A DNA stretch of 64,000 bases, taken from Schistosoma haematobium (taxonomy: Eukaryota; Platyhelminthes; Trematoda; Strigeidida; Schistosomatidae). Shown piece by piece: positions 2,601-39,029 of the stretch (position 1 is its first letter; every line of letters begins with the position of its first letter). The notes below the pieces were generated by a model. It had not been told where the DNA came from and did not search any database. It was given only the letters and a program-made list of their open reading frames with translations. Position numbers and translations under genes: made by a program. Location: positions 44,013,691 through 44,077,690 of the forward strand of contig NC_067198.1 in the NCBI RefSeq assembly GCF_000699445.3, given 5' to 3'.

Positions 2601-4103
2601 TACATCGGCTGTCAGTCAGTCGGTCACAACGTAGAATCTGTACGTACGCACACTGGTTCAAGTTGCCATGGCCTATTATCACAGAGATGTTGTCAGGCTA
2701 AATCCTAGAACAGTAGAGAAAGTAACAGTATCAGTTGCATTAGGAAAGATTAGGCACCGAAGATACGAATCCAAAAGAAAATATCAGTTGATGAAATCAA
2801 AACACAAAAAACAAGTCACCGGAAATCTAAAACCTCAGGATTTGATGAGTCAGTCAGTTAGTCAGCTACAACGTAGGACCAGGCACATATATGCATCGGT
2901 CCAGGTTGCCATACCGCATAGGAGTGGTTAGGTCAAAGGTGGTAATATATAGGAGAAAGATAGTATAGGAAGAAAGAATAAGATAGTAGAAAGAAAGATA
3001 TGAAGTGATTTTAATCTCTTAGTTTAAGGGAAGACAGGGAGTGTATACACCTACACCATTGTGACCGATTCTGAGCCATGTCACCAAGTCTCCAACCATT
3101 GGTTACGAAAGTCACGCGGACCCCAACCAAGTAGTCTGCATCTACCAACATGGCTCAGACTAGAGGTTAGTGTCTTCAAGCACTGATGCCACGTTTTGGT
3201 TTGGCCGCCCCTAATTCTCTTCCAACCATCCCGAACACCCGTTAGCATTGCACGACGTGGTAATCGGTGTTCAGGCATACGTAACACGTGGCCCAACCAT
3301 CTCAGTCGATGAAGATTAACAACCTCATCAACTGATTTACCATCATTACCTAATACCCTGCGTCTAACCTCACTATTAATTACCCGGTGATACCAGCAGA
3401 CGCCAGCAATATTTCTAAGGCATCTGTGATCAAATACGAGTGTCTTCTATTCTTAGCGGTCATGTTTCGCTGCCGTAAATTAAAACAGAACGGACTGCCG
3501 CGCAGTATACTCGTCATTTTATTGATAGACCGATAACTATCCTTCGACATAAGTGACGTAAATTGGTAAAAGCCAAGCGAGCCTTTCGAATCCGTGCTGA
3601 TATTTCGTCAGACACCAACCCATTATGGCTGATCAGACTTCCAAGATAAGTGAAGTTGTCAACGCGTTCGACTACTTCACTCCCTATCCTTAGTTCACGT
3701 GTTGACGCAGACCAGTTCTGAAGCAATAACTTGCATTTAGAGGGAGAGAAGCGCATTCCAAACATTCTAGCATTGTTGCTTAGTGCTACCAAAAGACTCT
3801 GCATTTTGTCAGCGTCTTCACCAAACAGGACTATGTCATCTGCGTATTCTAAGTCGATAAGTAGACCTCCTGGAAGGAGATCAATACCCGAGAATTCAGT
3901 CGACGAGTATGTTATTTCCATCAGTAGGTCTATGATGAAGTTAAAAAAAAATGGAGAAAGTGGACAGCCTTGACGTACACCACTTGAGGTTGCAAAAGTA
4001 GATGACAGTCCGCCATAAGCCCTGACTCGACTAGTAGTGTTCGAGTAAAGAGCCTTTACAAGGTTTATGTACTTTTGGGGTACGCCTTTCAATGATAGGT
4101 ATA
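2600..4103 (-). pseudogene. 5'-truncated RTE-clade LINE (SR2-like), array copy 1
   Basis: Minus-strand RT remnant. The block at 3,514-4,092 carries GVRQGCPLSPFFFNF, the catalytic YADD (..EYADDIVLFGEDADKMQ) and YLGSLIS. The 3,081-3,296 frame carries the C-terminal LRMPEHRLPRRAM..RGGQTKT region typical of RTE elements. The two are broken by frameshifts near 3,300-3,510. Downstream on the minus strand lie a 3' UTR and (CTGA)-type short repeats near 2,845-2,865, with a second set near 2,609-2,620; simple-repeat tails rather than poly(A) are characteristic of the RTE clade. The endonuclease is absent. Confidence 0.85.
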
Positions 4104-4700: not shown

Positions 4701-6589
4701 ATGTAGCCACGACCCGTGCCCATCTCGAGATTCAAATGGATCAATGTTCATCGATCTCGTCAATGATTACCTCTTATTTTAGTCTGTTTAAATACAATTG
4801 TCTTCCATTCAGTCTAAGTCGTTCTCCAACAATATTCCGAGATGTTATGAATAACGTAGTTGATGATCTTAGCAATGTTAATAATTGTCATGATGACCCT
4901 TTTGTTCATGGTCCTGATGAAGCAGAACATGATTTATTTACCGCTTAAACTTTGAAAGCATTCTGCTCTAGAGCTGCACGTTTCTCCAATGAAGATGCAT
5001 CTGTGATATTGATAGACATTTTAGTAGACGGGACAGCGTCAAGAAAAACTTCACTATTCTAAAAGGGAAAAGTGTTTCTTACTAAATCCTCATGCCACTG
5101 TTCTCATTCGGATGACGAGCTGACTTTTCAGGTGATATCAGCCAAACAACCACTGAAAATCAAGAAACACCGGAACGTTTTTCGTACTAACACTGTACAT
5201 CTTATAAACCACGAAGGAATATATATGTGAGATTCATATAGGGTACGGAGATTATCAACTTCAGAGAGATGAACAACCGTAGAGTCAACGTCTACAGTTT
5301 ATACATAGTTCTGTCAGAAATCTCAATAAATGCATACTCATCACTAACTTCGAGAGATCGTTTCCTCAGTTCTAGTGAGAAACCTAGAATACTGTATTTC
5401 TACATGGTTAAAACTGGGGAAAATCACAAGTGATAAGGGTAAGTGCAACGAACTTTACATAGATGGTTGCAGTACTAATTTTTGTGACCACTTTATCAAT
5501 AACGAAGCCTTAAATAATTCCCAAATTCAGAAAACTAGATAAAGTGAAAATCGGAATTGTGAACAATCAAGAAGATCCGACAGAGCTGTGCATAGGCTAA
5601 AACTACATGATAGACACACAGACACAAGCAACAAGTGCGGACTGTGGTGTACAGTTTTGACAGTTGCTGTGTTGTTAGGTGTTTTATGTTCTTTTTGTAT
5701 TCTGTAGTAACTGCGAAATACAATTCGATTCCGTCCACAGCAAATTTGATTTTTCAAATATCTATTATCCAATTTTCATGCTGGACTCATAATTATTCTT
5801 AGGGAAGTTATCAAAGAGCTTGGAATATATGCCTGTCATTTTAACAACTGACACACCATTTTTACACAGACAGTACCTTCGGTTATAATAAAGCGAGGAA
5901 AAGATGACTGGTGCATAATAACATGAATTTATTTTATCTTGCTTGGTTTTCATCGGCTGTCAATTAATGTTTGTTGAAGTAAGACAAATATTCTAATACC
6001 GATAGATATTTTTACATCGCGCTCATCCTACTTCTATTAACCATTCAAAATATCTATCAAAACAAGCAAACACTTTTCATATCTCTCGGAATATGTGTAC
6101 GTTGTAAGCTGAGTCTACTGTAGTTAATGTTTCAAAAATAATATTCCACTCATCATCCTTAAGTCATCCTCTATATCACACCTTGGACGAATGTCTTACG
6201 GAAGGTGTCTTTTCCGATCAACAATATAACATTTTCAAGATAATGTACAGGTAACATCCGAACACTAGAATCTACCTTTCTGCCTTTCTATTATTCAGCT
6301 AACCTGAAGCTGTTTGTTTAATGCTAATTAATCAAGTGAAATGATCGGAGAATGCTGTCATTTGTTCGAGTCTCAAAGTTGATGTTCATTCCATTACACA
6401 AGTCACTGGTTATTTCAACTCAGTGGCCATGTGGATAAACTGGTGATGGTGTTTGGAGTGAATGCTACTGGTTTCGATTTCCAGAGTAAACATCAAATCT
6501 GGAATGGTGGGACATGCAGCTGACAAATCCCAAACGGGAAGAAGTGTGCTTCCCGGACTTCACTACTACCCACCATCCACTTCTTGTTA
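4701..6589. other. Non-coding stretch
   Basis: The stretch 4,717-4,835 corresponds to the 120-128 bp direct repeat seen twice in copy 2. A frame ending at 4,948 (..SNVNNCHDDPF..) looks like decayed retroelement coding sequence, but I cannot place it in a domain. A 25 bp motif at 6,063-6,087 repeats at 7,593-7,617 inside the putative gene A terminal exon. Nothing else is supported. Confidence 0.5.
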
Positions 6590-6594
6590 AAATG

Positions 6595-6952
6595 TGTTGG
6601 GATATTCGGAAAAATATACCAATAGTTATCCTGTCACGTCTGATGGTGTCCTTGGACTTTAAATGGGCATTTCCTATTGGCCAATGTTTATTTCACTTGT
6701 CAAATATTGTACAAATGTTGTTTTCTATTTTATGGTACCATGTGGTCTGCTTGCTTGGTAAATAAACAGAATATGTTTGAAATATAGCGATTCATATCTC
6801 AGAGGCTGAGACTTGCGTTCTGGACACAACTGGCTGGGCTGGACAAGGAAGCAGGGTCAATCAGAACTCTAGGCCGTTCGTGCGTGTATTACGTGTCAGT
6901 GATCCGATCGATAAGTCGCTGCACTCTCATCTGCAGTTCACAAAACACAACA
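6595..6952 (+). mobile_element. Solo LTR (358 bp) with 5 bp target duplication
   Basis: Starts TGTTGGGATATTC and ends CACAACA (TG..CA), flanked by AAATG at 6,590-6,594 and 6,953-6,957. Copy 2 has the uninterrupted site with one AAATG (31,291-31,295), so this is an insertion followed by LTR-LTR recombination. It contains a CCAAT-like box near 6,680 and AATAAA near 6,761, which sets the plus orientation. The parent family was not identified. Confidence 0.88.
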
Positions 6953-7551
6953 AAATGCTTGTAACTTAATAACGACATTTAGGAAATACACAACCAATAT
7001 ATCTGTCGTTGTTAGTTGCATACGTTGTGCTTAATGTACAGACTAAAACTGATTTGCAATGTGCTGTTAAACTAACGGTCAAATCAACTGTCGTTCGACA
7101 TGGTAGCTGGTCACTCATGCATTATGTATACTACATGTTCTTCAGTAAAATGTGATCACCAGTAAACAAACAAATAGAACGAAAAGTGATGCTGAGAATT
7201 ATAATTTATTCTAATAAGTGTAACAAAACATCAAACACATTTGAAGATGAGATAATCAAGAGCCAACTTTTCCGTTGCATACAATAAATGATTTCTACAT
7301 TCGTGTTGTAGTTATTCAGTCTTCGTTAACTGCCTCCTAGGATTACAATGATTGCAGTGGTCCACATTGTCTAAAATGTTTGACAAAAGAGAAGAAATCA
7401 AGTTATGTTACTAGCAATCGAATATTAAGTTGCTTTGTAAACACAGTAGTTTTCGAATGGATATCTTTTCAACCTCAGTCTTAGTATTCAGAAGTGCTAC
7501 GCCAATCGTCCATATCTCCGTGGTGTCGATCTCCATTTTAGACTGCAAATT

Positions 7552-7619
7552 TCAAAACAAGTCTGACTTTTCTATACGCTTTTTAAATACATCAAGCAAA
7601 CACTTTTCATATCTCTCTT
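7552..7619 (-). CDS. Possible terminal exon of gene A (copy 1)
   Basis: Minus-strand sequence after a TAACTTAG acceptor opens a 68-nt frame (EERYEKCLLDVF..) ending in TGA at 7,552-7,554. It needs a phase 1 donor, while gene A exon 2 ends in phase 2, so one or more unseen small exons must lie between if it belongs to this gene. It is identical in copy 2 (31,959-32,026). Tentative: an intronic frame could arise by chance. Confidence 0.3.
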
Positions 7620-8534
7620 CTAAGTTATTTATATTCTGGCTACCTCCTGACGATTACGTCATTTTAAAAGTGTTTGCATAACTTTGGATGCCTTTTTAAT
7701 AGTGTAAAAATTATCTATCTATCTTTTCTCAAATCACTTTGTGATTAATGGCTACGATTGCAATCATGGGGCTTTATTAATTGGCATTACCAAAAAGAAA
7801 ACTTTCTTCACGTAATTGTGTTCGTTTAAACGTAAGGTGATAGGTGGTGGACAAGTGAGTTATTTGTGATGCAACTGGCCTATTGTGGAGTTGAATTATT
7901 TAGAGTTGACTGATCGCTGATTTTGACTAATCTCATGTTTAGTTGAGGTTAGTTGATTTGAAGTTCTCACTTTTCAGACTATAAAGCTGTGTGACATGTG
8001 TTCGAATCATTCCGGTGATGCAACACTTCTCTCATAACTATATGTACTCCTTGTTGATAAATATCAACAAGCACGAAACTGACGTCTGAAAATTTCTCGC
8101 GACTACCTTCAACCACCTAAAATGACAACATAGTCCGTACGATATCTAGTCACATAAACTAATTACCAAACTGCAATATGGAAAATAAAACCAACCAGCA
8201 CTCAAACGACTAGACAAGCATGACATTGTTTAGTACTCATTGATCAATTATTTCAAACCATTCATTACTCGTTATGGTTTATCAACTGTTGATTTTCCAT
8301 TAGTCGTAATCGTTGATTTCTCATTATACTGATAATCAATTAGCCACATCAAATTATTTCTCTCCTAAATTCAATTTCATTTGAAAAATTTCTTGAAAGA
8401 GTTATAATGGTCATTTAACTGATCCACATTGTCAGAATGTTTGTCCTTTGATATGACTACTTTATCGTATATGCGGTATAAATGCATTTATCACTCATTT
8501 CCATAGATTATCTTTCTCATATTTAAGAACTTAC

Positions 8535-8688
8535 CTAGAACCTCCACGATATCCAGATCGATTTGCTATTTCTACTTCACTTGGTGGTGCTAACGAAATT
8601 GTTCTAGTACAATATCTGTTCTTCGTTTTCAATATATCATTAGAATCGAGTGAAATATTCACTCCGTCCACGTTAACAAACATTTGTC
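8535..8688 (-). CDS. Secreted-protein gene A, exon 2 (copy 1, divergent)
   Basis: A 154-nt minus-strand exon between acceptor CAACTTTAG and donor GTAAGT. It continues the frame of exon 1 and encodes 51 residues, with NISLDSNDILKTKNRYC followed by a conserved PPSEVE block. Gene B exon 2 shares 14 of 31 aligned residues without gaps (N.SL....L...N..CT....L.PPSEVE), which confirms that it is coding. The copy 2 version differs at 12 bases, 10 of them nonsynonymous. One cysteine; no enzymatic motif seen. Likely a secreted variable protein of unknown function. Confidence 0.72.
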
Positions 8689-8783
8689 CTAAAGTTGAAA
8701 AAGCAGTAAACTATGATTAGTGAGGCTACAACGTAAGACATGTTGATTGAATTGTGAATCATATCACAAATCCACTCGAATTG

Positions 8784-8892
8784 CGTGTTACTATTACTAC
8801 TACTACTCATACTACTACTACTAATACTACTCCTTCTAATTCTACTACTACTCCTTCTACTACTACTACTAATTCTACTACTACTCCTACTA

Positions 8893-8931
<39 letters not shown>

Positions 8932-8935
8932 ATAC
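8784..8935. repeat. (ACT)n microsatellite in gene A intron 1 (copy 1)
   Basis: Interrupted ACT/TCT triplet tract ending in 11 uninterrupted ACT units. Copy 2 has 18 in the same place. Apparent poly-Ser, poly-Leu, poly-Thr and poly-Val frames here are repeat artefacts. A shorter (ACT)n tract sits in the same intron of gene B (about 185-235 in copy 1). Confidence 0.9.
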
Positions 8936-8991
8936 TGACAATAGCAATAATAATGATAAGTATATTAATAATGAATAAATAATACACATAC

Positions 8992-9103
8992 CTGTCTCGT
9001 CAAACTGAATTGGTACTCTAAATGTGGCTGATTCAATTGTCATTATGCTTAATGTGCATAAAATCACTACGGCAATATACAATTTGAACATGTGGGATAT
9101 CAT
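8992..9103 (-). CDS. Secreted-protein gene A, signal-peptide exon (copy 1)
   Basis: ATG at 9,101-9,103; 112 coding nt to a GTATGT donor. It encodes a short basic start, a hydrophobic core (LYIAVVILCTLSIMTI) and a tail ending VPIQFDETG. Length, phase and the VPI..DETG ending match gene B exon 1. It splices in frame to exon 2 at 8,688 across a 303 bp intron holding the microsatellite. The ATG at 9,101 was chosen because it gives the same 112-nt length as gene B; an in-frame Met four codons later would also work. Identical in copy 2. Confidence 0.68.
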
Positions 9104-9389
9104 TCCTACAGTTGATATTAATAGTAGAAAGCATCACACTATGACTGACATTTTCATGAAAATAAGCAAATATTAAATCATCTCTGTACAAAACTAACTT
9201 AATTTAATACACCATTTGATTATGTTAATTTGATGTTCTTAATGCTGAATATCGGTACAAAACTGTTCTCTATTTCCTAGCACCAAATTCATCTATATTC
9301 ACTCATGGTCACTTTGATATTTTCTCATTTATACATATGTATAGAGTGATTATAATCAGTGGACTGTGTATGATCTACACTAGGATTTT

Positions 9390-9491
9390 GTACTGAATGA
9401 GGAGTCACACATTAGGACGAAACAGACATCCAGTGCTTCCAGGTTTTCCATGGCGGTCTAGATTTAATTGACTCATGAATTCAACTATTAG
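9390..9491 (+). mobile_element. SINE 3' fragment with degenerate hammerhead core
   Basis: Matches the 3' half of the SINE at 721: AGGAGTCAC, AGGACGAAAC, CCAGTGCTTCC and the common tail. The core is damaged (ACTGAATGAGGAG), so no cleavage is expected. It lies upstream of the gene A start. Confidence 0.6.
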
Positions 9492-11269
9492 ATGTTAATT
9501 TCTTTGGCAAAACCTACAGTCACTGTCAAGTTTACGTTTCATGATTAACTTGGATGAAAATTTTGTAGAGTTGTCAATGAACCTTGAAATCTTACATTAT
9601 TTCATTTTGCTTCTCATTAGTAGTGCAATAGTACACCTGTTCGACAATCGTCCATTCGTACAATTTACCCATTATGTGCAGTTTCGTAATCTGTTTCATT
9701 GTGATCGTTGATCCATGAATTCCCTTGATCAGTTTAATATTTTCACATGTTCATAGAGTAAAATCTGATAAAGATCGTATTGACAACATTAGTGTTCGCT
9801 CATATGTGTTGTCTTAGTCTTGAATTCAACAAACGAATTCTTGATTCGTAAGTGGGTTATAATGAGTATTACATACATAATACAGACATAGAGTATACTG
9901 ATGAACCAATACACTTGTGTACCTGAAATAAACTCATTGTAATGCATCTCCTAAACTTCTATGAATTACCAAGTCAGAAGATAGGTAAACAAGCTCAGTC
10001 ACAGATTACATTTCATTATGAAAATATTACAGAATAACTTACTGCAATTGTCCTATTATTGTTAGAGATATGACTTGGAGGAGTGAACAATTTATACAGA
10101 TGAATTGAACGATAAGCCAATGAAAAACCGTTGTATGAGATTAAATGTAGGTTATGAACCATAATGTACCGACATAAACTGTAGTTTTATACGAAAAAAC
10201 CACCTAACGACTGAATGTAACGAAAACATCTAAATAAATAATAAGGGTTATTTGTTGATCAATGATTAGATAATCCGATTAAATGATTAAATGGAATTTA
10301 CATGACATTTTGGAATGTTTATTGTTTACAAATCCGCTGTTCATATGTATTCATAACCATGTCTGAGTGAACTCGAATTACATCGTTTTCTTGTTCACAT
10401 ATTAGCTGTATGGCAGTGATGCTTGGATTGATTATTATTATTATTATTAATATTATTATTAATAATGACTTTATTCGATATTATATTTTGGTACAATATG
10501 GAATTCTCAGCACAGGGTATTTCAACAAGTTACTTACGCTAAAACAAAACATTAACAAAGACAAAAAAGGTTGAAAAAAACCGACAAACTGTGCAACTTT
10601 TCAAATTAGAGACATGTTATGAATGCAGGTTATTGACTAGGTTTGTGGAGATAGGCCTAATAAACCTATTTTGTAAATAGTTTTTGATAGCTCTTGCATT
10701 TATTTTGTTTATTTCCACAATCTGTACATGTATCACTAAACGATTGTACTTGTTGTTTAACTATGTGACCTTGACGACGAACTTCCGTTTTGAATTACAC
10801 ATAGCACGACATTGTTAATTGTGCATTAATAAATACACTCTTATACACAAATGCCTCGTTCTGTCATGCCTATGGATATAATAACTAAACTATTGAATAA
10901 CTATCAACTATATTTATAGACTGTTGTGACATACCTATTACATTCTACGTCCAGAAAACTGGCTGGAGCCATATTTACCTCATTGAAATTATTAATTATC
11001 TATAATTGTGGAACTTTGGTAACACGCACAACGAAACACGCAACAGCCAGCTGATTTAAGCAACATCCTTGAACCTTTATTTTGCGGTAATGATTTATAA
11101 GTTGTTTATTGTTATTCTAACTTTTGGATGTAATAACTTTGTTGCTATTCCTTTTTGGTTAATATACTGTTTGGACCACCACAGGTTAACTCGAACAACC
11201 TGTTCGTCACAGAGTATATTTGTTAGGTAAGGTGTAAGATCCGTTTTGAATGTTTTGTATGTGTGTGTG
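9492..11269. other. Non-coding stretch with a LINE 3' end at 10,428-10,545
   Basis: No gene supported. On the minus strand, 10,545-10,428 reads like a LINE 3' end, with AATAAA followed by an (ATT)n tail; related sequence lies near 19,050. From about 10,920 to 11,210 the sequence begins TGTTGTGACA and ends GTCACA, which suggests a solo LTR, but no flanking duplication was found. A (TG)n tract lies just before 11,270. Confidence 0.45.
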
Positions 11270-12190
11270 TCATGTTTTGGTTTGGCCGCCCCTAGCTTTC
11301 TTCCAACCTACTCCTATACCACTGAACATAGCACGTCGAGGCAGTCGGTTATTGGGCATACGTAACACGTGTCCCAGCCACCTCAACTGATGAAGTTTCA
11401 CTACTTCATCAATTGATTTACCATCCTTACCTAGTACCCGTTTCCTAACAACTGTGTTAGTTACTCGATGGTCCCATGATATACGAGCAATGTTTCGAAG
11501 ACACCTATGATCGAATACTAGTAACCTACGAATATCCTCTACTCTTACCGGCCATGTTTCACTGCCATAAAGTAGGACGGAACGAACTGCTGCGCAGTAA
11601 ACACGTCCTTTGGTTGATAGATGGATATCTCGCCTACGCCATAAATGACGCAAGTTGGCAAAAGCTAGTCGAGCCTTCTGTATCCGTGCTAAGATTTCGT
11701 CACACACCAAACCACAAGGGCTGATGAGACTTCCAAGATAAGTGAAGCGGTCGACACACTCAACTACTTCACTCCCTATCACTAGTTCGGGTGTCGATGT
11801 AACCCAATCCTGAAGCAACATTTTGCATTTCGAGGGAGAGAATCGCATCCCGAACATGCTTGCATTGTTGCTTAGAGTGGTCAGGAGACTCTGCATTTTG
11901 TCAGCGTCTTCACCAAATAAAACTATGTCATCTGCATATTCTAAGTCAACAAGTGAACCTCCTGGTAGAAGTTCAACCCCTGGAAATTTAGATGAGGAGA
12001 GTGTTATCTCTAAAAGTACGTCGACCACAAAGTTGAACAAGAATGGGGAGAGTGGACAGCCCTGACGAACACCACTTGAGGTAATCAATTCTGATGGCAG
12101 TTCGCCATAATCTCTTACTCTACCAGTTGTGTTCGAGTAGAGAGCCTTTATAAGGTTAATGTACTTCTTTGGTACTCCTTTCAGTGACAA
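11270..12190 (-). pseudogene. RTE reverse transcriptase palm and thumb (copy 1)
   Basis: A 306-residue open frame with GVRQGCPLSPFLFNF near residue 37, catalytic YADD near residue 83 and YLGSLIS near residue 150, then the RTE C-terminal VLLYGSETW and WLGHVLRMP motifs. It ends at RGGQTKT because the element is cut there. The upstream frame supplies FDSVDRKVLWQ before the first listed residue. Not translated as one protein because of upstream breaks. Confidence 0.87.
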
Positions 12191-12233
12191 ACACTGCCAT
12201 AGAACCTTACGATCAACAGAGTCGAATGCCGCC

Positions 12234-13440
12234 TTAAGGTCGAGAAATACTACGATTGTGGGGCGTCTGAATGTGTCTGTGTTCTAGAACCTGACGTAGT
12301 GTGAATATCTGATCTATACAACCACGTCCAGGTCGAAAACCAACCTGGTTTTCTCTACTCTGCCCTTCACGAGCTTTAGTTAGGCGTCGAAGTATTATTG
12401 AAGCTAATATTTTAGACACTATATTAGTCAAACTGATTCCTCTGTGATTGTCACAAGAGGACTTTTGTCCTTTCTTATAGACTGGGCACAATCAGTGATT
12501 GAGACCAGTCAGATGGGATTATGTCCAGTTCCCAAATTCTACCTAAGACCTCGGTTAATCTCATTGCTAATACTGGACCACCATCCTTAAAAATCTCAGG
12601 AGTAAACCTGTCAGGGCCTGCTGCTCTCCCTCGTTTCAGATTTCCTATGGCTTTTTCAACTTCGTAAAGGGACGGAGGACCTACATTAACTTGCCATTCA
12701 GGTTGACTAGAGATCGTGGGAAACCGAAGTGTGGCTGAAGGCCAGTTGAACTGATTCCTAAAGTGTTCTGCCCATCGATCCAATCTCCTGGATTGAGAAT
12801 GAATAATATGTCCATCCTTTTCTGAGATTGTTTCGCTAACGGTCGGGTTCCTAATTCCGGTTTCCTTAACGAGTCTGAACAATTATCTGCTATTACCTAT
12901 TGCCGCTGCCTTTTCCATCTCTCTTGCTTTCGCTACCCACCACTGTTCGCGATCATTGCGTAGACTTCTTGTCAGCTTGCGCTTAAGCTGACTCCGCTCT
13001 TCATTATGTTCAGAGCCGGGTGGAATGAGTTTCCGAGCATCTATCAGTGAGATAGATGCTGCTGAGATCCAGTGTTGCTCCCTAACCTTCTGGTTTACCT
13101 TACTAGCAGATATCACTGCTGTTTCCACAGCTTTTCGGATATCTTTCCATGCTGCCTCGGGGTGGGCATCACATACATGTCTGCCTAACTGTTTTCCTAG
13201 TTGTTCCTGAAATATACTCTTAGCTTGACTATAATTAAGTAGGCCCCTAAGAGGTTTCCTTGCAGCGTCTTTCCTACGTCCAGTAAGACGCAAGCAAATA
13301 CGCGCTCGCACTAGAGCATGATCTGAATCTAAGCATGTGCTCCAGAATGAGCGACAGTCTTCAATCGAGCCCCTCCATCGGTGGCTGATAGCGATGTGAT
13401 CTATTTGGGTCCAACGTTGGGACGAATTAGGGGTCGCCAT
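12234..13440 (-). pseudogene. RTE endonuclease end, linker and RT fingers (copy 1)
   Basis: Three frames in succession: 12,883-13,440 (endonuclease end and linker), 12,475-12,882 (linker to ..RAAGPDRFTPEIF) and 12,234-12,491 (YKKGQKSSCDNHRGISLTN, VGFRPGRGC). A TAA separates the first two in the same reading frame; frameshifts separate the others. It supplies the fingers of the RTE reverse transcriptase. Confidence 0.82.
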
Positions 13441-14426
13441 GTTAAAAGATGTTTTTCTTTAGGCTTAAAGTTAGTATTTGTAAGGAACAGGCGGTTATCT
13501 GAGCATAGCTGCAACAGACGGTCGCCATTATCTGTTCTTCGAGCCACGACACCATAAGATCCACCTAGGTGTCTTTCCCTATCGCTTAGTTTACCTACTT
13601 GAGCACTAAAGTCACCGGCCACTATTACTACATCCGAGCGCTTAGCTTTTCGGAGAAGGTCCGAAAGCTTTCTGTAAAACTCATCTTTTACATCATCTGA
13701 GCTGCAGTCAGTGGGAGAATAGGCAGAGACGACGAAGAGGCAACGACGAGTGTCCCTATCTTTCCGGATTCTTACTGTTCCGTTCAGTCGGACAGCGCAC
13801 AAACGACTGTCTACTGGGATCCAGTCTAAGAGAGCTAGTTCTGCCCTAGGACTCAATGCTATACCTACGCCGGCGAGGCCACGGGAAGCAGAATCAGGGC
13901 TTCCAGATACACGAAGCGTAAATCGAGTCGGTTCTCTATTTTGGCATGGTGAGGTCAAATGAATGACGCTACTTGGATCCTGTATGCGCGTTTCGGAGAC
14001 GCAGCACACATCGATGGCGCGAGATTCTAAAGTCCTAGCTAAGGAAGCCTGCTGTCCTATTTGGCACAGTGTTCGTACGTTAAAAGCTCCTACGTGTAGT
14101 TTAGAGCGTGGTTTCAGGAGACCAGGAATAGCGTTCCGCGTGCTTGAATCGTTTGCCCTAGCGGTGTGAGATGATGAAGAGACGTGAGGAGGGTTAGTCA
14201 TGGAGATAAGAGAGTTATTAGTAGGTGTAGGAAGGATTTGAATGTGACCAACTTGGTCTCGTGTGCTGTTACGGGTATAAGGGCTGATGTCACTTCCAAA
14301 CTGCCCACACCGTGGAAGGGTATTGCTTGAGAAACCTAAAAAGGAAGTCGGATTAATGTTGGCCTTAACGACTTTGGAGCGTGACTGCAGAGCCCAAGGT
14401 ACAACTGCTTGAGACCGGTCGCGCAC
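13401..14426 (-). pseudogene. RTE endonuclease domain (copy 1)
   Basis: Encodes an APE-type endonuclease, which nicks target DNA for reverse transcription. Visible motifs are FNVRTL, SETRIQD, SAYSPTD and GDFSAQVG. The last normally reads GDFN, with a catalytic asparagine; copy 1 has serine while copy 2 keeps asparagine. Past the frameshift, QIDHIAIS and SDHALV (catalytic histidine) continue in the 12,883-13,440 frame. The first 110 or so residues are a low-similarity leader, so the exact start is uncertain. Confidence 0.85.
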
Positions 14427-14715
14427 GGCCTTTCTGTGGAAGGTTTTTGACGTGTTAGCTCCTTTCTTCGAAGAGCCTTACCGCCCGGAGACGGAAATCC
14501 CTGAGGTAAGGTTAGGTGTGCATTTTTAGGGTCGACCTTTTCTAACCCCACCCCTCCTTGTGGGAAGGCAGCATCGCTGTCATGCTGGTTGTCCGAGGGA
14601 ACACCTTACTGCTGTCACATCTCTCTACAGTCAGCAGTACGACTTCGCCCTCAGACATTGAGTTACTGCTTTTGGTCTTACCGTTCACCAATCGACCTGC
14701 CTGGCCTGGTAGAAC

Positions 14716-20509: not shown

Positions 20510-20662
20510 ACGGAGACGGTACGATATCCTTTGCGTGTATTTTCTCCACCTCAGAAGGTGGTGGTAATTTTAATACTGTTGTACAACTTTTGTTTTGTAT
20601 TGTTAATGTTCGATCTTCCGTTAATGAGAGATTGAAAATTTTGCTGGTATAGTTTATAGTTC
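20510..20662 (-). CDS. Secreted-protein gene B, exon 2
   Basis: A 153-nt minus-strand exon between acceptor CCTCTCTTTAG and donor GTAAGT, in frame with gene B exon 1 at 21,548. It encodes FNLSLTEDRTL, QNKSC and PPPSEVE, aligning without gaps to gene A exon 2 (14 of 31 identical). It contains Asn-X-Ser/Thr sites. It keeps R and Q at positions where gene A copy 2, but not copy 1, also has them. Copy 2 lacks this exon through a deletion at 44,610. Confidence 0.7.
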
Positions 20663-21547
20663 CTAAAGAGAGGAAATATGTTATGTAGACTGACTATCTC
20701 TTCGTTACTTATAATGTAAATGCTTACATACAATCATGGTGATGCATATGATTCCACGTAGTGTTAAGCAAATGAATGCAAAGGAACTGTTCAGGTGCGA
20801 AGAAAAGTTGTAAACTGCATTGATTCTCGTTAACTGTCGGACAATAAAGAAATGATGCTTGACTATGATAACTACTGTAAACCTTATGTTTACTGGCAGA
20901 TTGTACGTACTGACAAAGATTTCGAGACCGAGATGACTGACATAACAGTGTTATCTTAAGTTTTCAACAAACACACGTGAATAAAGTACGTCAGAACAAG
21001 TAAAATACATTGAAATGCAGTCTTGAGATATATTGACTTCAGTGAAAAATGTACGGAATACTCATTGATGCACTAAGAGTGTAACAAAGTGTACGCTTAG
21101 CATCCGATTGTGTGATCGAAGTGATTCAATGACTACTAACGACTATAGGTAGAAATATCAGGAACAGTAATGAAATGAGAAGCTTCTGTAAAGTGAACGA
21201 CTGATTCCGAATATTAAGTGAATATTTAGTACTGTTTTTTCTGCACTAGTGATGATTGATATATGCTTGAACACATTTTAGTAGATCTGTTCAGTCTATG
21301 TTGAAGAGCAAGCCTCAACTATAATTGGAGATTGGGTATCATACATAATAAAACGATGGATAACAGTGCTGAAAAAAATAGTTCATTTAAGTATATGATA
21401 TTCTGAAGGTCGGTCGGGTTACTTCTACGAAAACTACTACTACTATTACAATTACTACTACTACTCACACTAAAACTAATACTTACCATATTCATAGTTC
21501 AAGTACAAACACGTAGATTACATTTATGTTTAGAATATACAATTTAC

Positions 21548-25890: not shown

Positions 25891-25902
25891 TCTCCATACT
25901 TT

Positions 25903-29629: not shown

Positions 29630-31958
29630 GTTATGAATAACGTAGTTGATGATCTTAGCAATGTTAATAATTGTCATGATGACCCTTTTGTTCATGGTCC
29701 TGATGAAGCAGAACATGATTTATTTACCGCTTAAACTTTGAAAGCATTCTGCTCTAGAGCTGCACGTTTCTCCAATGAAGATGCATCTGTGATATTGATA
29801 GACATTTTCGTAGACGGGACAGCGTCAAGAAAAACTTCACTATTCTAAAAGGGAAAAGTGTTTCTTACTAAATCCTCATGTCACTGTTCCCATTCGGATG
29901 ACAAGCTGACTTTTCAGGTGATATCGGCCAAACAACCACTGAAAATCAAGAAACACCACTTCAGAGAGATGAACAACCGTAGAGTCAACGTCTACAGTTT
30001 ATATATAGTTCTGTCAGAAATCTCAATAAATACATGCTCATCACTAACTTCGAGAGATCGTTTCCTCAGTTCTAGTGAGAAACCTAGAATACTGTATTTC
30101 TACATGGTTAAAACTGGGGAAAATCACAAGTGATAAGGGTAAGTGCAACGAACTTTACATAGATGGTTGCAGTACTAATTTTTGTGACCACTTTATCAAT
30201 AACGAAGCCTTAAATAATTCCCAAATTCAGAAAACTAGATAAAGTGAAAATCGGAATTGTGAACAATCAAGAAGATCCGACAGAGCTGTGCATAGGCTAA
30301 AACTACATGATAGACACACAGACACAAGCAACAAGTGCGGACTGTGGTGTACAGTTTTGACAGTTGCTGTGTTGTTAGGTGTTTTATGTTCTTTTTGTAT
30401 TCTGTAGTAACTGCGAAATACAATTCGATTCCGTCCACAGCAAATTTGATTTTTCAAATATCTATTATCCAATTTTCATGCTGGACTCATAATTATTCTT
30501 AGGGGAAGTTATCAAAGAGCTTGGAATATATGCCTGTCATTTTAACAACTGACACACCATTTTTACACAGACAGTACCTTCGGTTATAATAAAGCGAGGA
30601 AAAGATGACTGGTGCATAATAACATGAATTTATTTTATCTTGCTTGGTTTTCATCGGCTGTCAATTAATGTTTGTTGAAGTAAGACAAATATTCTAATAC
30701 CGATAGATATTTTTTACATCGCGCTCATCCTACTTCTATTAACCATTCAAAATATCTATCAAAACAAGCAAACACTTTTCATATCTCTCGGAATATGTGT
30801 ACGTTGTAAGCTGAGTCTACTGTAGTTAATGTTTCAAAAATAATATTCCACTCATCATCCTTAAGTCATCCTCTATATCACACCTTGGACGAATGTCTTA
30901 CGGAAGGTGTCTTTTCCGATCAACAATATAACATTTTCAAGATAATGTACAGGTAACATCCGAACACTAGAATCTACCTTTCTGCCTTTCTATTATTCAG
31001 CTAACCTGAAGCTGTTTGTTTAATGCTAATTAATCAAGTGAAATAATCGGCGAATGCTGTCATTTGTTCGAGTCTCAAAGTTGATGTTCATTCCATTACA
31101 CAAGTAACTGGTTATTTCAACTCAGTGGCCATGTGGATAAACTGGTGATGGTGTTTGGAGTGAATGCTACTGGTTTCGATTTCCAGAAAGAACATCAAGT
31201 CTGGAATGGTGGGACATGCAGCTGACGAATCCGAAACGGGAAGAAGCGTGTTTCCGGACTCCACTACTACCCACTATCCACTTCCTGTTAAAATGCTTGT
31301 GACTTAATAACGACATCTAGGAAATACCCAAAACATGTACACATATCAGGAAGAGACTGATGAATTGTAGCCCCTATTACAAACGGGAAGAACCGGATAA
31401 CCAATATATCTGTCATTTGTTAGTTGCATACGTTGTGCTTAATGTATAAAATAAACCTGATTTGCAATGTGCTGTTAAACTAACGGTCAAATCAACTGTC
31501 GTTCGACATGGTAGCTGGTCACTCATGCATTATGTATACTACATGTTCTTCAGTAAAATGTGATCACCAGTAAACAAACAAATAGAACGAAAAGTGATGC
31601 TGAGAATTATAATTTATTCTAATGAGTGTAACAAAACATCAAGCACATTTGAAGATGAGATAATCAAGAGCCAACTTTTCCGTTGCATACAATAAATGAT
31701 TTCTACATTCGTGTTGTAGTTATTCAGTCTTCACATTGTCTAAAATGTTTGACAAAAGAGAAGAAATCAAGTTATGTTACTAACACTCGACATTTAAGTT
31801 GCTTTGTAAACAAAGTATTTTTCGAATGACTTCATATATATTTATACATAACAATAGCGTTGATAGTACATATTTTCAACCCCAGTCTTAGTATTCAGAA
31901 GTGCTACGCCAATCGTCCATATCTCCGTGGTGTCGATCTCCATTTTAGACTGCAAATT
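29630..31958. other. Non-coding stretch (copy 2 equivalent of 4,836-7,551)
   Basis: Contains the empty site of the copy 1 solo LTR (AAATG at 31,291-31,295). About 70 bp near 31,327-31,398 and about 45 bp near 31,830 are not present in copy 1. It lacks about 55 bp found in copy 1 at 5,175-5,265. No gene seen. Confidence 0.5.
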
Positions 31959-32026
31959 TCAAAACAAGTCTGACTTTTCTATACGCTTTTTAAATACATC
32001 AAGCAAACACTTTTCATATCTCTCTT
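31959..32026 (-). CDS. Possible terminal exon of gene A (copy 2)
   Basis: Identical to 7,552-7,619: TAACTTAG acceptor, EERYEKCLLDVF.., TGA stop. Same caveats on phase. Confidence 0.28.
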
Positions 32027-32941
32027 CTAAGTTATTTATATTCTGGCTACCTCCTGACGATTACGTCATTTTAAAAGTGTTTGCATAACTTTGGATGCCT
32101 TTTTAATAGTGTAAAAATTATCTATCTATCTTTTCTCAAATCACTTTGTGATTAATGGCTACGATTGCAATCATGGGGCTTTATTAATTGGCATTACCAA
32201 AAAGAAAACTTTCTTCACGTAACTGTGTTCGTTTAAACGTAAGGTGATAGGTGGTGGACAAGTGAGTTATTTGTGATGCAACTGGCCTATTGTGGAGTTG
32301 AATTATTTAGAGTTGACTGATCGCTGATTTTGACTAATCTCATGTTTAGTTGAGGTTAGTTGATTTGAAGTTCTCACTTTTCAGACTATAAAGCTGTGTG
32401 ACATGTGTTCGAATCATTCCGGTGATGCAACACTTCTCTCATAACTATATGTACTCCTTGTTGATAAATATCAACAAGCACGAAACTGACGTCTGAAAAT
32501 TTCTCGCGACTACCTTCAACCACCTAAAATGACAACATAGTCCGTACGATATCTAGTCACATAAACTAATTACCAAACTGCAATATGGAAAATAAAACCA
32601 ACCAGCACTCAAACGACTAGACAAGCATGACATTGTTTAGTACTCATTGATCAATTATTTCAAACCATTCATTACTCGTTATGGTTTATCAACTGTTGAT
32701 TTTCCATTAGTCGTAATCGTTGATTTCTCATTATACTGATAATCAATTAGCCACATCAAATTATTTCTCTCCTAAATTCAATTTCATTTGAAAAATTTCT
32801 TGAAAGAGTTATAATGGTCATTTAACTGATCCACATTGTCAGAATGTTTGTCCTTTGATATGACTACTTTATCGTATATGCGGTATAAATGCATTTATCA
32901 CTCATTTCCATAGATTATCTTTCTCATATTTAAGAACTTAC

Positions 32942-33095
32942 CTAGAAACTTCACGATATCCAGATCGAGTTGCTATTTCTACTTCACTTGGTGGTGCTAA
33001 TGAAATTGTTTCAGTACAATATCTGTTCTGCATTTTCAATATACGATTAGAGTCGAGTGAAATATTCACTCCGTTCACGTTAACAAACATTTGTC
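32942..33095 (-). CDS. Secreted-protein gene A, exon 2 (copy 2, divergent)
   Basis: Same 154-nt exon and splice signals as 8,535-8,688 but with 12 substitutions. Residues change D to N, D to R, T to M, K to Q, R to E, N to T, G to E and G to V; two codons change silently. The flanking 134 bp on the donor side are identical, and the acceptor side shows one difference in about 95 bp. The frame stays open and PPSEVE is kept, so it still looks functional. R and Q agree with gene B, so these states may be ancestral. Confidence 0.72.
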
Positions 33096-33190
33096 CTAAA
33101 GTTGAAAAAGCAGTAAACTATGATTAGTGAGGCTACAACGTAAGACATGTTGATTGAATTGTGAATCATATCACAAATCCATTCGAATTG

Positions 33191-33299
33191 CGTGTTACTA
33201 TTACTACTACTACTCATACTACTACTACTAATACTACTCCTTCTAATTCTACTACTACTCCTTCTACTACTACTACTAATTCTACTACTACTCCTACTA

Positions 33300-33359
<60 letters not shown>

Positions 33360-33363
33360 ATAC
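33191..33363. repeat. (ACT)n microsatellite in gene A intron 1 (copy 2)
   Basis: Same tract as 8,784-8,935 but with 18 uninterrupted ACT units instead of 11. Confidence 0.9.
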
Positions 33364-33419
33364 TGACAATAGCAATAATAATGATAAGTATATTAATAAT
33401 GAATAAATAATACACATAC

Positions 33420-33531
33420 CTGTCTCGTCAAACTGAATTGGTACTCTAAATGTGGCTGATTCAATTGTCATTATGCTTAATGTGCATAAAATCACTACGG
33501 CAATATACAATTTGAACATGTGGGATATCAT
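33420..33531 (-). CDS. Secreted-protein gene A, signal-peptide exon (copy 2)
   Basis: Base-for-base identical to 8,992-9,103. ATG at 33,529-33,531, GTATGT donor, in frame with exon 2 at 33,095. The contrast between this unchanged exon and the altered exon 2 is the main point of interest. Confidence 0.68.
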
Positions 33532-33817
33532 TCCTACAGTTGATATTAATAGTAGAAAGCATCACACTATGACTGACATTTTCATGAAAATAAGCAAATA
33601 TTAAATCATCTCTGTACAAAACTAACTTAATTTAATACACCATTTGATTATGTTAATTTGATGTTCTTAATGCTGAATATCGGTACAAAACTGTTCTCTA
33701 TTTCCTAGCACCAAATTCATCTATATTCACTCATGGTCACTTTGATATTTTCTCATTTATACATATGTATAGAGTGATTATAATCAGTGGACTGTGTATG
33801 ATCTACACTAGGATTTT

Positions 33818-33920
33818 GTACTGAATGAGGAGTCACACATTAGGACGAAACAGACATCCAGTGCTTCCAGGTTTTCCATGGCGGTCTAGATTTAATTGAC
33901 TCATGAATTCAACTATTAGA
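33818..33920 (+). mobile_element. SINE 3' fragment (copy 2)
   Basis: Equivalent of 9,390-9,491, with the same damaged hammerhead core. Confidence 0.58.
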
Positions 33921-35698
33921 TGTTAATTTCTTTGGCAAAACCTACAGTCACTGTCAAGTTTACGTTTCATGATTAACTTGGATGAAAATTTTGTAGAGTT
34001 GTCAATGAACCTTGAAATCTTACATTATTTCATTTTGCTTCTCATTAGTAGTGCAATAGTACACCTGTTCGACAATCGTCCATTCGTACAATTTACCCAT
34101 TATGTGCAGTTTCGTAATCTGTTTCATTGTGATCGTTGATCCATGAATTCCCTTGATCAGTTTAATATTTTCACATGTTCATAGAGTAAAATCTGATAAA
34201 GATCGTATTGACAACATTAGTGTTCGCTCATATGTGTTGTCTTAGTCTTGAATTCAACAAACGAATTCTTGATTCGTAAGTGGGTTATAATGAGTATTAC
34301 ATACATAATACAGACATAGAGTATACTGATGAACCAATACACTTGTGTACCTGAAATAAACTCATTGTAATGCATCTCCTAAACTTCTATGAATTACCAA
34401 GTCAGAAGATAGGTAAACAAGCTCAGTCACAGATTACATTTCATTATGAAAATATTACAGAATAACTTACTGCAATTGTCCTATTATTGTTAGAGATATG
34501 ACTTGGAGGAGTGAACAATTTATACAGATGAATTGAACGATAAGCCAATGAAAAACCGTTGTATGAGATTAAATGTAGGTTATGAACCATAATGTACCGA
34601 CATAAACTGTAGTTTTATACGAAAAAAACCACCTAACGACTGAATGTAACGAAAACATCTAAATAAATAATAAGGGTTATTTGTTGATCAATGATTAGAT
34701 AATCCGATTAAATGATTAAATGGAATTTACATGACATTTTGGAATGTTTATTGTTTACAAATCCGCTGTTCATATGTATTCATAACCATGTCTGAGTGAA
34801 CTCGAATTACATCGTTTTCTTGTTCACATATTAGCTGTATGGCAGTGATGCTTGGATTGATTATTATTATTATTATTAATATTATTATTAATAATGACTT
34901 TATTCGATATTATATTTTGGTACAATATGGAATTCTCAGCACAGGGTATTTCAACAAGTTACTTACGCTAAAACAAAACATTAACAAAGACAAAAAAGGT
35001 TGAAAAAAACCGACAAACTGTGCAACTTTTTAAATTAGAGACATGTTATGAATGCAGGTTATTGACTAGGTTTGTGGAGATAGGCCTAATAAACCTATTT
35101 TGTAAATAGTTTTTGATAGCTCTTGCATTTATTTTGTTTATTTCCACAATCTGTACATGTATCACTAAACGATTGTACTTGTTGTTTAACTATGTGACCT
35201 TGACGACGAACTTCCGTTTTGAATTACACATAGCACGACATTGTTAATTGTGCATTAATAAATACACTCTTATACACATATGCCTCGTTCTGTCATGCCT
35301 ATGGATATAATAACTAAACTATTGAATAACTATCAACTATATTTATAGACTGTTGTGACATACCTATTACATTCTACGTCCAGAAAACTGGCTGGAGCCA
35401 TATTTACCTCATTGAAATTATTAATTATCTATAATTGTGGAACTTTGGTAACACGCACAACGAAACACGCAACAGCCAGCTGATTTAAGCAACATCCTTG
35501 AACCTTTATTTTGCGGTAATAATTTATAAGTTGTTTATTGTTATTTTAACTTTTGGATGTAATAACTTTGTTGCTATTCCTTTTTGGTTAATATACTGTT
35601 TGGACCACCACAGGTTAACTCGAACAACCTGTTCGTCACAGAGTATATTTGTTAGGTAAGGTGTAAGATCCGTTTTGAATGTTTTGTATGTGTGTGTG
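33921..35698. other. Non-coding stretch (copy 2), with LINE 3' end at 34,857-34,975
   Basis: Near-identical to 9,492-11,269. Minus-strand AATAAA plus (ATT)n LINE end, then AT-rich sequence ending in (TG)n before the RTE. No gene seen. Confidence 0.45.
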
Positions 35699-36619
35699 TC
35701 ATGTTTTGGTTTGGCCGCCCCTAGCTTTCTTCCAACCTACTCCTATACCACTGAACATAACACGTCGAGGCAGTCGGTTATTGGGCATACGTAACACGTG
35801 TCCCAGCCACCTCAACTGATGAAGTTTCACTACTTCATCAATTGATTTACCATCCTTACCTAGTACCCGTTTCCTAACAACTGTGTTAGTTACTCGATGG
35901 TCCCATGATATACGAGCAATGTTTCGAAGACACCTATGATCGAATACTAGTAACCTACGAATATCCTCTACTCTTACCGGCCATGTTTCACTGCCATAAA
36001 GTAGGACGGAACGAACTGCTGCGCAGTAAACACGTCCTTTGGTTGATAGATGGATATCTCGCCTACGCCATAAATGACGCAAGTTGGCAAAAGCTAGTCG
36101 AGCCTTCTGTATCCGTGCTAAGATTTCGTCACACACCAAACCACAAGGGCTGATGAGACTTCCAAGATAAGTGAAGCGGTCGACACACTCAACTACTTCA
36201 CTCCCTATCACTAGTTCGGGTGTCGATGTAACCCAATCCTGAAGCAACATTTTGCATTTCGAGGGAGAGAATCGCATCCCGAACATGCTTGCATTGTTGC
36301 TTAGAGTGGTCAGGAGACTCTGCATTTTGTCAGCGTCTTCACCAAATAAAACTATGTCATCTGCATATTCTAAGTCAACAAGTGAACCTCCTGGTAGAAG
36401 TTCAACCCCTGGAAATTTAGATGAGGAGAGTGTTATCTCTAAAAGTACGTCGACCACAAAGTTGAACAAGAATGGGGAGAGTGGACAGCCCTGACGAACA
36501 CCACTTGAGGTAATCAATTCTGATGGCAGTTCGCCATAATCTCTTACTCTACCAGTTGTGTTCGAGTAGAGAGCCTTTATAAGGTTAATGTACTTCTTTG
36601 GTACTCCTTTCAGTGACAA
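35699..36619 (-). pseudogene. RTE reverse transcriptase palm and thumb (copy 2)
   Basis: A 306-residue frame differing from copy 1 by one residue (Ala to Val in RRAMFSG). Catalytic YADD and the RTE C-terminal motifs are kept; truncated at RGGQTKT. Confidence 0.87.
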
Positions 36620-36662
36620 ACACTGCCATAGAACCTTACGATCAACAGAGTCGAATGCCGCC

Positions 36663-37869
36663 TTAAGGTCGAGAAATACTACGATTGTGGGGCGTCTGAA
36701 TGTGTCTGTGTTCTAGAACCTGACGTAGTGTGAATATCTGATCTATACAACCACGTCCAGGTCGAAAACCAACCTGGTTTTCTCTACTCTGCCCTTCACG
36801 AGCTTTAGTTAGGCGTCGAAGTATTATTGAAGCTAATATTTTAGACACTATATTAGTCAAACTGATTCCTCTGTGATTGTCACAAGAGGACTTTTGTCCT
36901 TTCTTATAGACTGGGCACAATCAGTGATTGAGACCAGTCAGATGGGATTATGTCCAGTTCCCAAATTCTACCTAAGACCTCGGTTAATCTCATTGCTAAT
37001 ACTGGACCACCATCCTTAAAAATCTCAGGAGTAAACCTGTCAGGGCCTGCTGCTCTCCCTCGTTTCAGATTTCCTATGGCTTTTTCAACTTCGTAAAGGG
37101 ACGGAGGACCTACATTAACTTGCCATTCAGGTTGACTAGAGATCGTGGGAAACCGAAGTGTGGCTGAAGGCCAGTTGAACTGATTCCTAAAGTGTTCTGC
37201 CCATCGATCCAATCTCCTGGATTGAGAATGAATAATATGTCCATCCTTTTCTGAGATTGTTTCGCTAACGGTCGGGTTCCTAATTCCGGTTTCCTTAACG
37301 AGTCTGAACAATTATCTGCTATTACCTATTGCCGCTGCCTTTTCCATCTCTCTTGCTTTCGCTACCCACCACTGTTCGCGATCATTGCGTAGACTTCTTG
37401 TCAGCTTGCGCTTAAGCTGACTCCGCTCTTCATTATGTTCAGAGCCGGGTGGAATGAGTTTCCGAGCATCTATCAGTGAGATAGATGCTGCTGAGATCCA
37501 GTGTTGCTCCCTAACCTTCTGGTTTACCTTACTAGCAGATATCACTGCTGTTTCCACAGCTTTTCGGATATCTTTCCATGCTGTCTCGGGGTGGGCATCA
37601 CATACATGTCTGCCTAACTGTTTTCCTAGTTGTTCCTGAAATATACTCTTAGCTTGACTATAATTAAGTAGGCCCCTAAGAGGTTTCCTTGCAGCGTCTT
37701 TCCTACGTCCAGTAAGACGCAAGCAAATACGCGCTCGCACTAGAGCATGATCTGAATCTAAGCATGTGCTCCAGAATGAGCGACAGTCTTCAATCGAGCC
37801 CCTCCATCGGTGGCTGATAGCGATGTGATCTATTTGGGTCCAACGTTGGGACGAATTAGGGGTCGCCAT
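36663..37869 (-). pseudogene. RTE linker and RT fingers (copy 2)
   Basis: Same three-frame arrangement and the same in-frame TAA as copy 1 12,234-13,440. One substitution (Ala to Thr in HPETAWKD). Confidence 0.82.
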
Positions 37870-38855
37870 GTTAAAAGATGTTTTTCTTTAGGCTTAAAGT
37901 TAGTATTTGTAAGGAACAGGCGGTTATCTGAGCATAGCTGCAACAGACGGTCGCCATTATCTGTTCTTTGAGCCACGACACCATAAGATCCACCTAGGTG
38001 TCTTTCCCTATCGCTTAGTTTACCTACTTGAGCATTAAAGTCACCGGCCACTATTACTACATCCGAGCGCTTAGCTTTTCGGAGAAGGTCCGAAAGCTTT
38101 CTGTGAAACTCATCTTTTACATCATCTGAGCTGCAGTCAGTGGGAGAATAGGCAGAGACGACGAAGAGGCAACGACGAGTGTCCCTATCTTTCCGGATTC
38201 TTACTGTTCCGTTCAGTCGGACAGCGCACAAACGACTGTCTACTGGGATCCAGTCTAAGAGAGCTAGTTCTGCCCTAGGACTCAATGCTATACCTACGCC
38301 GGCGAGGCCACGGGAAGCAGAATCAGGGCTTCCAGATACACGAAGCGTAAATCGAGTCGGTTCTCTATTTTGGCATGGTGAGGTCAAATGAATGACGCTA
38401 CTTGGATCCTGTATGCGCGTTTCGGAGACGCAGCACACATCGATGGCGCGAGATTCTAAAGTCCTAGCTAAGGAAGCCTGCTGTTCTATTTGGCACAGTG
38501 TTCGTACGTTAAAAGCTCCTACGTGTAGTTTAGAGCGTGGTTTCAGGAGACCAGGAATAGCGTTCCGCGTGCTTGAATCGTTTGCCCTAGCGGTGTGAGA
38601 TGATGAAGAGACGTGAGGAGGGTTAGTCATGGAGATAAGAGAGTTATTAGTAGGTGTAGGAAGGATTTGAATGTGACCAACTTGGTCTCGTGTGTTGTTA
38701 CGGGTATAAGGGCTGATGTCACTTCCAAACTGCCCACACCGTGGAAGGGTATTGCTTGAGAAACCTAAAAAGGAAGTCGGATTAATGTTGGCCTTAACGA
38801 CTTTGGAGCGTGACTGCAGAGCCCAAGGTACAACTGCTTGAGACCGGTCGCGCAC
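37830..38855 (-). pseudogene. RTE endonuclease domain (copy 2)
   Basis: A 341-residue frame with FNVRTL, SETRIQD, SAYSPTD and an intact GDFNAQVG. Differences from copy 1 include Ser to Asn at GDFN and Arg to Gln in VVARRTDNG. The frame still breaks before the DHIAIS/SDH motifs, so no complete enzyme is encoded. Confidence 0.84.
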
Positions 38856-39029
38856 GGCCTTTCTGTGGAAGGTTTTTGACGTGTTAGCTCCGTTCTTCGA
38901 AGAGCCTTACCGCCCGGAGACGGAAATCCCTGAGGTAAGGTTAGGTGTGCATTTTTAGGGTCGACCTTTTCTAACCTCACCCCTCCTTGTGGGAAGGCAG
39001 CATCGCTGTCATGCTGGTTGTCCACTTCG

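Follow-up and report, generated by a model that had tools for sequence, protein, structure and literature searches.

A coding exon more divergent than its introns in one lineage of a Schistosoma haematobium tandem gene array

Gene A of Schistosoma haematobium encodes a small protein and is present as a cluster of copies, and in one lineage of these copies the second coding exon differs far more than the DNA on either side of it. Two members of this lineage, c1 and c2, lie in the window (the whole 64-kb stretch of DNA analysed here); they differ at 12 of 154 bases in exon 2, as opposed to 1 of 2,481 in the flanks when the TAC repeat is left out (Fisher P = 1e-14). By its mode of evolution, and not by homology, the array fits among accelerated-exon tandem arrays, in which a coding exon is more divergent than the introns. 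We consider it probable, with some reservation, that old, positively selected exon 2 lineages have been kept or exchanged by gene conversion in an array whose flanks were recently duplicated or homogenised. The case is of interest as a schistosome family of small proteins, in a species infecting many people, with a single exon remodelled far faster than the adjoining DNA; local exon signatures of this kind mark out proteins that are likely to be exposed to the host, and the array has internal controls, namely near-identical flanks and slower sister subfamilies, with which selection can be parted from conversion.

Gene A copies and their arrangement

A genome-wide DNA search found at least nine copies of exon 2, all on C4 (the window's contig) between 43.82 and 44.05 Mb, which we call c0, c1, c2; d888, d900; e918, e923; f854; and g821. 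Each gene copy has one exon 2 match, and the exon is 154 bp long with AG/GT borders in nine of nine copies; it is identical within the pairs c0 and c1, d888 and d900, and e918 and e923. A protein search with P0008 gave at least 35 exon-level matches (24 at E <= 0.001), 33 of them on C4 at 43.70-44.05 Mb; of the other two, one is at a different place on C4 and one on C8. Copies e918 and e923 are arranged in tandem. Copies d888 and d900 form an inverted repeat whose two arms match at 99.6% along 3.3 kb (L017-L019; C4:43887124-43890422 and 43898296-43901588), a layout that could favour gene conversion. Exon 2 of g821 (C4:43821429-43821582) contains an in-frame stop. Exon 3 was not found close to this copy, nor close to e918 or e923, within the 200 kb fetched; all three are probably decayed or truncated copies. 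The relevant features of the window are the following.

8535..8688, minus strand: exon 2 of gene A copy c1, 154 bp, with AG acceptor and GT donor; 50 complete codons in addition to split ones
8992..9105, minus strand: exon 1 of copy c1, with a provisional 5' end, start codon near 9103, matching P0001; it encodes a hydrophobic signal-like segment and the mature N-terminus
7343..7370, minus strand: coding part of exon 3 of copy c1, ending in QCGPLQSL-stop, the same as the tail of P0001
32942..33095, minus strand: exon 2 of gene A copy c2, with 12 differences from c1
33420..33533, minus strand: exon 1 of copy c2, identical to that of c1
31724..31739, minus strand: coding part of exon 3 of copy c2, ending in QCED-stop, shortened by a 39-bp deletion
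7414..7475, minus strand: second patch of c1/c2 divergence, in intron 2 of c1, with 11 substitutions and a 38-bp block absent in c1
31783-31882: counterpart of the intron 2 patch in c2, which holds the 38-bp block, seen in altered form in d888/d900
8789..8936, plus strand: TAC microsatellite within intron 1 of c1, lying 100 bp away from the acceptor of exon 2
33196..33364, plus strand: corresponding TAC microsatellite within intron 1 of c2, which exceeds that of c1 by 21 bp
6992..14594, no strand: repeat-unit block with c1, pairing with 31399-39023
31399..39023, no strand: repeat-unit block with c2, pairing with 6992-14594

The C-terminal tails (7343-7370 and 31724-31739) are variable: c0 and c1 have an early stop, c2 has the 39-bp deletion, and a longer tail is kept in f854 and the d copies.

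Divergence between c1 and c2

Alignment of the two exons on the minus strand agrees with the sequence-only reading from which this study started. Ten of the 12 differences are nonsynonymous and two synonymous by the Nei-Gojobori count, and eight residues are changed (D45N, D55R, T59M, K60Q, R66E, N80T, G86E and G87V in P0001 numbering). The changes from R to E (AGA in c1, GAA in c2) and from D to R (GAT and CGT) are double differences within one codon; since other copies carry intermediate codons, ACA at codon 28 and GGT or CGT at codon 17, simultaneous double mutation is not required for R66E or D55R, and was dismissed. The exon has gained no indel and no stop between c1 and c2, and its splice sites and reading frame are intact.

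On the donor side, where identity had been noted over 134 bp, it extends further, with zero substitutions from 8534 to 7817. The acceptor side, previously credited with one difference in about 95 bp, has a single substitution (8775) across the whole of 8689 to 10601, together with two length differences, of 21 bp in the TAC repeat and of 1 bp at 10193. Within 100 bp on either side of the exon there is 1 difference in 200. The signal exon 1 is identical, as had been said, not only in c1 and c2 but also in c0. The further claim that the changes stop at the exon borders is true locally, but the confinement is not strict, as the intron 2 patch at 7414-7475 and the 39-bp exon 3 deletion are found in the same block. 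The whole 7.6-kb c1/c2 block contains 45 substitutions, and no other 154-bp stretch of the compared unit is as dense in differences as exon 2; clusters nearly as dense (9-11 per 154 bp) occur outside gene A near 6404-6594, 23906-24060 and 25732-26063, all of them at or near alignment ends.

Acceleration is bound to the c lineage

Comparison of c1 with the other types puts the exon next to three classes of surrounding DNA. Against f854, exon 2 differs at 18/154 positions, upstream DNA at 0/283, near introns at 6/275 and the farther part of intron 2 at 7/300; the corresponding values against e918 are 18/154, 12/283, 8/275 and 6/300, and against d900 they are 12/154, 10/283, 14/275 and 89/276, the d copies having truly different distal introns. 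In seven of the ten pairs that c1, c2, d900, e918 and f854 can form, namely in every pair with a c copy, the nonsynonymous difference exceeds the non-coding one (P from 0.035 to 7e-9). At P < 0.05 these are c1-c2, c1-f854, c2-f854, c1-e918 and c2-e918 and, weakly, c1-d900 and c2-d900; the strongest contrasts are c1-c2 (10/116 nonsynonymous vs 1/558 non-coding) and c1-f854 (16/116 vs 6/558). No exon 2 acceleration relative to non-coding DNA was seen in the remaining three pairs, d-e, d-f and e-f. Private changes tell the same, with exon 2 set against 1,346 non-coding columns: 5 vs 0 for c1 and 4 vs 1 for c2 (P = 9e-9), as compared with 1 vs 11 for f854, 2 vs 33 for e918 and 0 vs 128 for d900. 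The stem of the c copies has 6/154 changes in exon 2 and 7/1,346 in non-coding DNA (P = 0.001). The c-including pairs and the private changes thus limit the acceleration to the c stem, c1 and c2; it does not extend throughout the cluster.

Two sister subfamilies serve as controls. Copies at 43816139 and 43870707 differ at 15/154 positions of exon 2, 11 of 14 intron bins are more than 20% different and many are gapped, and the two bins adjoining exon 2 (4/44 and 11/100) are at about the exon level. In L041-L043, exon 2 is identical in all three copies. With neither subfamily showing the effect, acceleration across the whole family is rejected, and the tendency to outpace its own flanks is no built-in property of exon 2. 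The term "hypervariable exon", used in the sequence-only reading, is therefore apt for the c lineage only, as exon 2 in the two sister subfamilies is either identical or no faster than the adjoining introns.

Selection or mutation

Counts by parsimony on one assumed tree of five copies (c1, c2, d900, e918 and f854) gave 23 nonsynonymous changes at about 116 sites, 2 synonymous changes at about 34, and 49 changes at 558 non-coding sites near the gene. Copies c0, d888 and e923 were omitted from these counts, since their exon 2 is the same as in c1, d900 and e918; g821 was omitted from the parsimony, codon-model and private-change counts because it has a stop codon and its flanks align poorly; and flank counts exclude the TAC repeat and gapped columns. 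Nonsynonymous change exceeds synonymous and non-coding change taken together (P = 8e-4), which upholds the earlier suggestion of diversifying selection under that tree. Set against synonymous change alone, the 23 nonsynonymous changes to 2 give a Fisher P of 0.067, and a codon model of exon 2 alone, with its 50 codons, gives omega 3.16 (P = 0.073 against 1). Positive selection on exon 2 amino acids appears to be supported in the c0/c1/c2 lineage, with the weight on the non-coding comparison. Pairs that include the decayed g821 give no sign of it (omega 0.9-1.2). Relaxed constraint or pseudogene drift was rejected for the c copies, with nonsynonymous change far above non-coding, and is possible for g821 and e918/e923.

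A mutation process focused on exon 2, another of the earlier suggestions, might be read from the c1-c2 synonymous count (2/34), which is above the flank level, and from pairs involving g821 (omega 0.9-1.2), in which exon dS of 0.14-0.22 is above the near-intron difference of about 0.10-0.12. Over the five copies, however, synonymous change is no faster than non-coding change (2/34 vs 49/558, P = 0.76), which argues against such a mutator; d900, e918 and f854 have 0 synonymous differences in exon 2 while their near introns are 4-7% apart; exon 2 among d, e and f is no faster than the introns; and two sister subfamilies lack the effect. We have discarded local hypermutation as extremely unlikely.

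The exon 2 changes include charge reversals and gains or losses of N-glycosylation sequons, as judged by eye from translations. A predicted sequon N48-I-S occurs in c0, c1, c2 and g821, in place of which d, e and f have D-I-S; another predicted sequon, N80-R-S, is confined to c0/c1.

Age of the exon versions and exchange between copies

The exon 2 versions of c1 and c2 look older than the DNA around them, because a synonymous count of 2/34 would be unlikely at the flank rate of 1/2,481 (P = 5e-4); the wider unit background of 69/16,723 gives P = 0.009. The two are also at nearly the same distance from the other types: c1 and c2 differ from the d type at 12 and 13 of 154, respectively, and from the e type at 18 and 17 of 154. 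The intron 2 patch of c2 likewise has an old appearance: its 38-bp block is present in altered form in d888/d900 and absent from c0, c1 and f854, the e copies have unrelated sequence at this position, and the same gene copy is without 39 bp of exon 3. Two exon 2 sites conflict with the pairing of c1 and c2, one joining c2 with e and f and the other joining c2 with f, although these could be recurrent changes. No non-coding site conflicts with the pairing, but the flanks could hardly reveal such conflict, because c1 and c2 differ at just one non-coding site.

A similar indication comes from S. bovis, at the protein level only. P0002 and P0003 differ at 16 sites, and P0004 is P0003-like at the first six of these (residues 22-52), like neither at 55, P0002-like at the next six (63-89) and P0003-like at the last three (92-103), so that it looks like an exon-2-scale mosaic of P0002 and P0003 that returns to the P0003 type in exon 3. 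P0004 also has D55 and N80, two residues that c0/c1 alone carry among the S. haematobium copies. Repeated independent change at a handful of codons under selection could look like exchange. None of the other copies, among the nine compared (a lower bound for the genome), carries the changes private to c0/c1 or those private to c2, and no identical donor was found. The proposal of conversion from a paralogous exon is accordingly borne out in part: the old-looking c2 intron patch, the two conflicting sites and the mosaic S. bovis protein are in its favour, and the missing donor is against it. On the whole, the comparisons favour old exon versions kept or exchanged by conversion.

Under this scheme of conversion between old lineages, exon 2, which encodes most of the mature protein, would have been diversified by amino-acid selection in the c0/c1/c2 lineage, with host recognition of a secreted protein presumably as the selective agent. 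Two old exon 2 lineages may then have been held apart, or one may have been copied from another array member via a short gene-conversion tract, the rest of the approximately 24-kb unit being recently duplicated or homogenised. Differences among the c, e and f copies are concentrated in exon 2, with few in the introns close by, and for this reason a conversion tract some hundreds of bases long passing between such copies would look "exon-confined" without any machinery that targets the exon. The single difference in the 200 bases of the 100-bp flanks implies that the tract was short or that the donor flanks were c-like. Against the scheme stand the codon-model result, which is not significant, the d-e, d-f and e-f pairs with their lack of exon acceleration, the g821 pairs and the protein-level nature of the S. 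bovis mosaic.

If, on the other hand, c1 and c2 had fixed exon 2 point mutations in place after duplication, by positive selection and without exchange, one would expect what is seen in the 10 of 12 changes that are nonsynonymous, in the almost identical flanks, and in private changes on both c1 and c2. Such a burst accounts poorly for the synonymous differences, which are unexpected at the flank rate and at the unit background, for residues recurring in other copies or in S. bovis, and for the presence of the old-looking intronic patch; we regard it as unlikely. An error of assembly or polishing is very unlikely. A near-identical array adjoining a satellite is a hard region to assemble, and the c2 exon version was seen in this assembly only; yet the public S. 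haematobium protein P0001 is identical to c1 along all of its 97 amino acids and comes from a contig of 50,965,827 bp, which is not C4 (48,328,128 bp) and hence apparently belongs to a different assembly, lending independent support to the c1 version. Twelve substitutions that leave no indel or stop and spare the splice sites are, moreover, atypical of sequencing error, and f854 shows a similar pattern, as do the S. bovis proteins among themselves. The sharp borders of exon 2 and the presence in the window of several ORFs judged by eye to be reverse-transcriptase-like might bring to mind conversion through cDNA, in which the reverse-transcribed spliced message of a paralogue overwrites exons and not introns. 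Exon 1 is the same in c1 and c2, however, the non-coding intron 2 patch differs as well, and ordinary short tracts account for the borders, all of which makes this route highly improbable.

The preferred scheme, of old lineages and conversion, has a bolder extension, which we offer tentatively and think doubtful as a whole. The cluster would be a standing pool of old exon 2 versions, some of them common to S. haematobium and S. bovis, with short conversion tracts shuttling versions between array members while the units undergo repeated homogenisation; this would amount to germline exon-cassette diversification of a secreted parasite protein, possibly fed by introgression.

The protein family

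The supposition that the DNA comes from a parasite is supported by the best protein match, the S. haematobium protein P0001, which is 100% identical to the product of c1 exons 1, 2 and 3. The matching proteins P0001-P0011 (67 to 113 aa) are from Schistosoma only (S. haematobium, S. bovis, S. margrebowiei and S. rodhaini); complete ones have about 93-113 aa encoded by three coding exons, and a hydrophobic N-terminus. Gene A products are probably secreted, as had been proposed, a view that draws on the appearance of exon 1 and on one database label, "Secreted protein", attached to S. rodhaini P0007. The cysteine C64 is found in 10 of 11 proteins and C91 in all 10 that reach that position; these two cysteines, assumed to be structural, are nearly invariant. 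Exons 1 and 2 of c1 and c2 matched no Pfam family, and there was no significant match to a solved structure, the best PDB sequence match for c1 having an E-value of 0.39. A structure model, mostly strands, is of low confidence (pLDDT 55.9), and at that confidence Foldseek gave 0 of 685 matches at E <= 0.001; the model was set aside as too weak to serve as evidence.

Relation to known systems

The evolutionary mode has precedents, in snake toxin genes and, within Schistosoma itself, in SmPoMuc. For SmPoMuc of S. mansoni, the authors conclude that conversion homogenises repeat introns and selection keeps exon differences (PMC2576457). In both systems the genes are clustered and their products are of secreted type with a signal peptide, but SmPoMuc is described as having 15 exons, a tandemly repeated exon 2 and a domain with a variable number of repeats (PMC2576457), whereas the coding part of gene A is split into three exons and P0001-P0011 show no repeat domain by eye. 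With one exon 2 per gene copy and no repeat domain, gene A was rejected as a member of SmPoMuc.

In viperid three-finger toxin genes, exon segments have been exchanged, so that introns are highly similar and exon segments differ; three exons, similar introns and conserved cysteine positions in the account of these genes are shared with gene A (PMC2474615). In the toxins as described there, whole segments are very different, whereas gene A has scattered substitutions in one alignable exon. It is the mode of evolution that is compared, and no sequence relation is claimed. Exon 2 diversity of MHC class II is shaped by selection, recombination and conversion. That diversity is allelic and at host immune loci, in contrast to the copy-to-copy diversity of gene A in a parasite array.

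Micro-exon genes (MEGs) of schistosomes resemble gene A in encoding small secreted proteins with a signal peptide, and are reported to have exons of 3-81 bp, mostly multiples of three (PMC10526429). Membership of gene A among them was rejected, as its exon 2 is 154 bp long and it has only three coding exons. The literature searched, by titles and the starts of abstracts, held no earlier description of the gene A family, and five peptide strings from it were unmatched there.

Surroundings of the cluster

Between the e copies and c0 lies a satellite of about 1,203 bp, with 50 near-full copies at 99.7% mean identity (C4:43935320-43995831, L022-L028), and a 236-bp piece 77% alike to it is found in the window at 6594-6815. 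Two stretches are candidate distant relatives of the exon, one at C4:44012943-44013104, just left of the window (E 0.001), and the other at window positions 20544-20669 on the minus strand (E 0.64), which is open and exon-like and has a CTT-type cysteine motif. Reverse-transcriptase/endonuclease-like ORFs, named by eye from their translations, occupy 3514-4092, 11270-15390, 35699-39687, 57261-59327 and 60913-63562 of the window, the fourth of these having the look of a long gypsy-like polyprotein.
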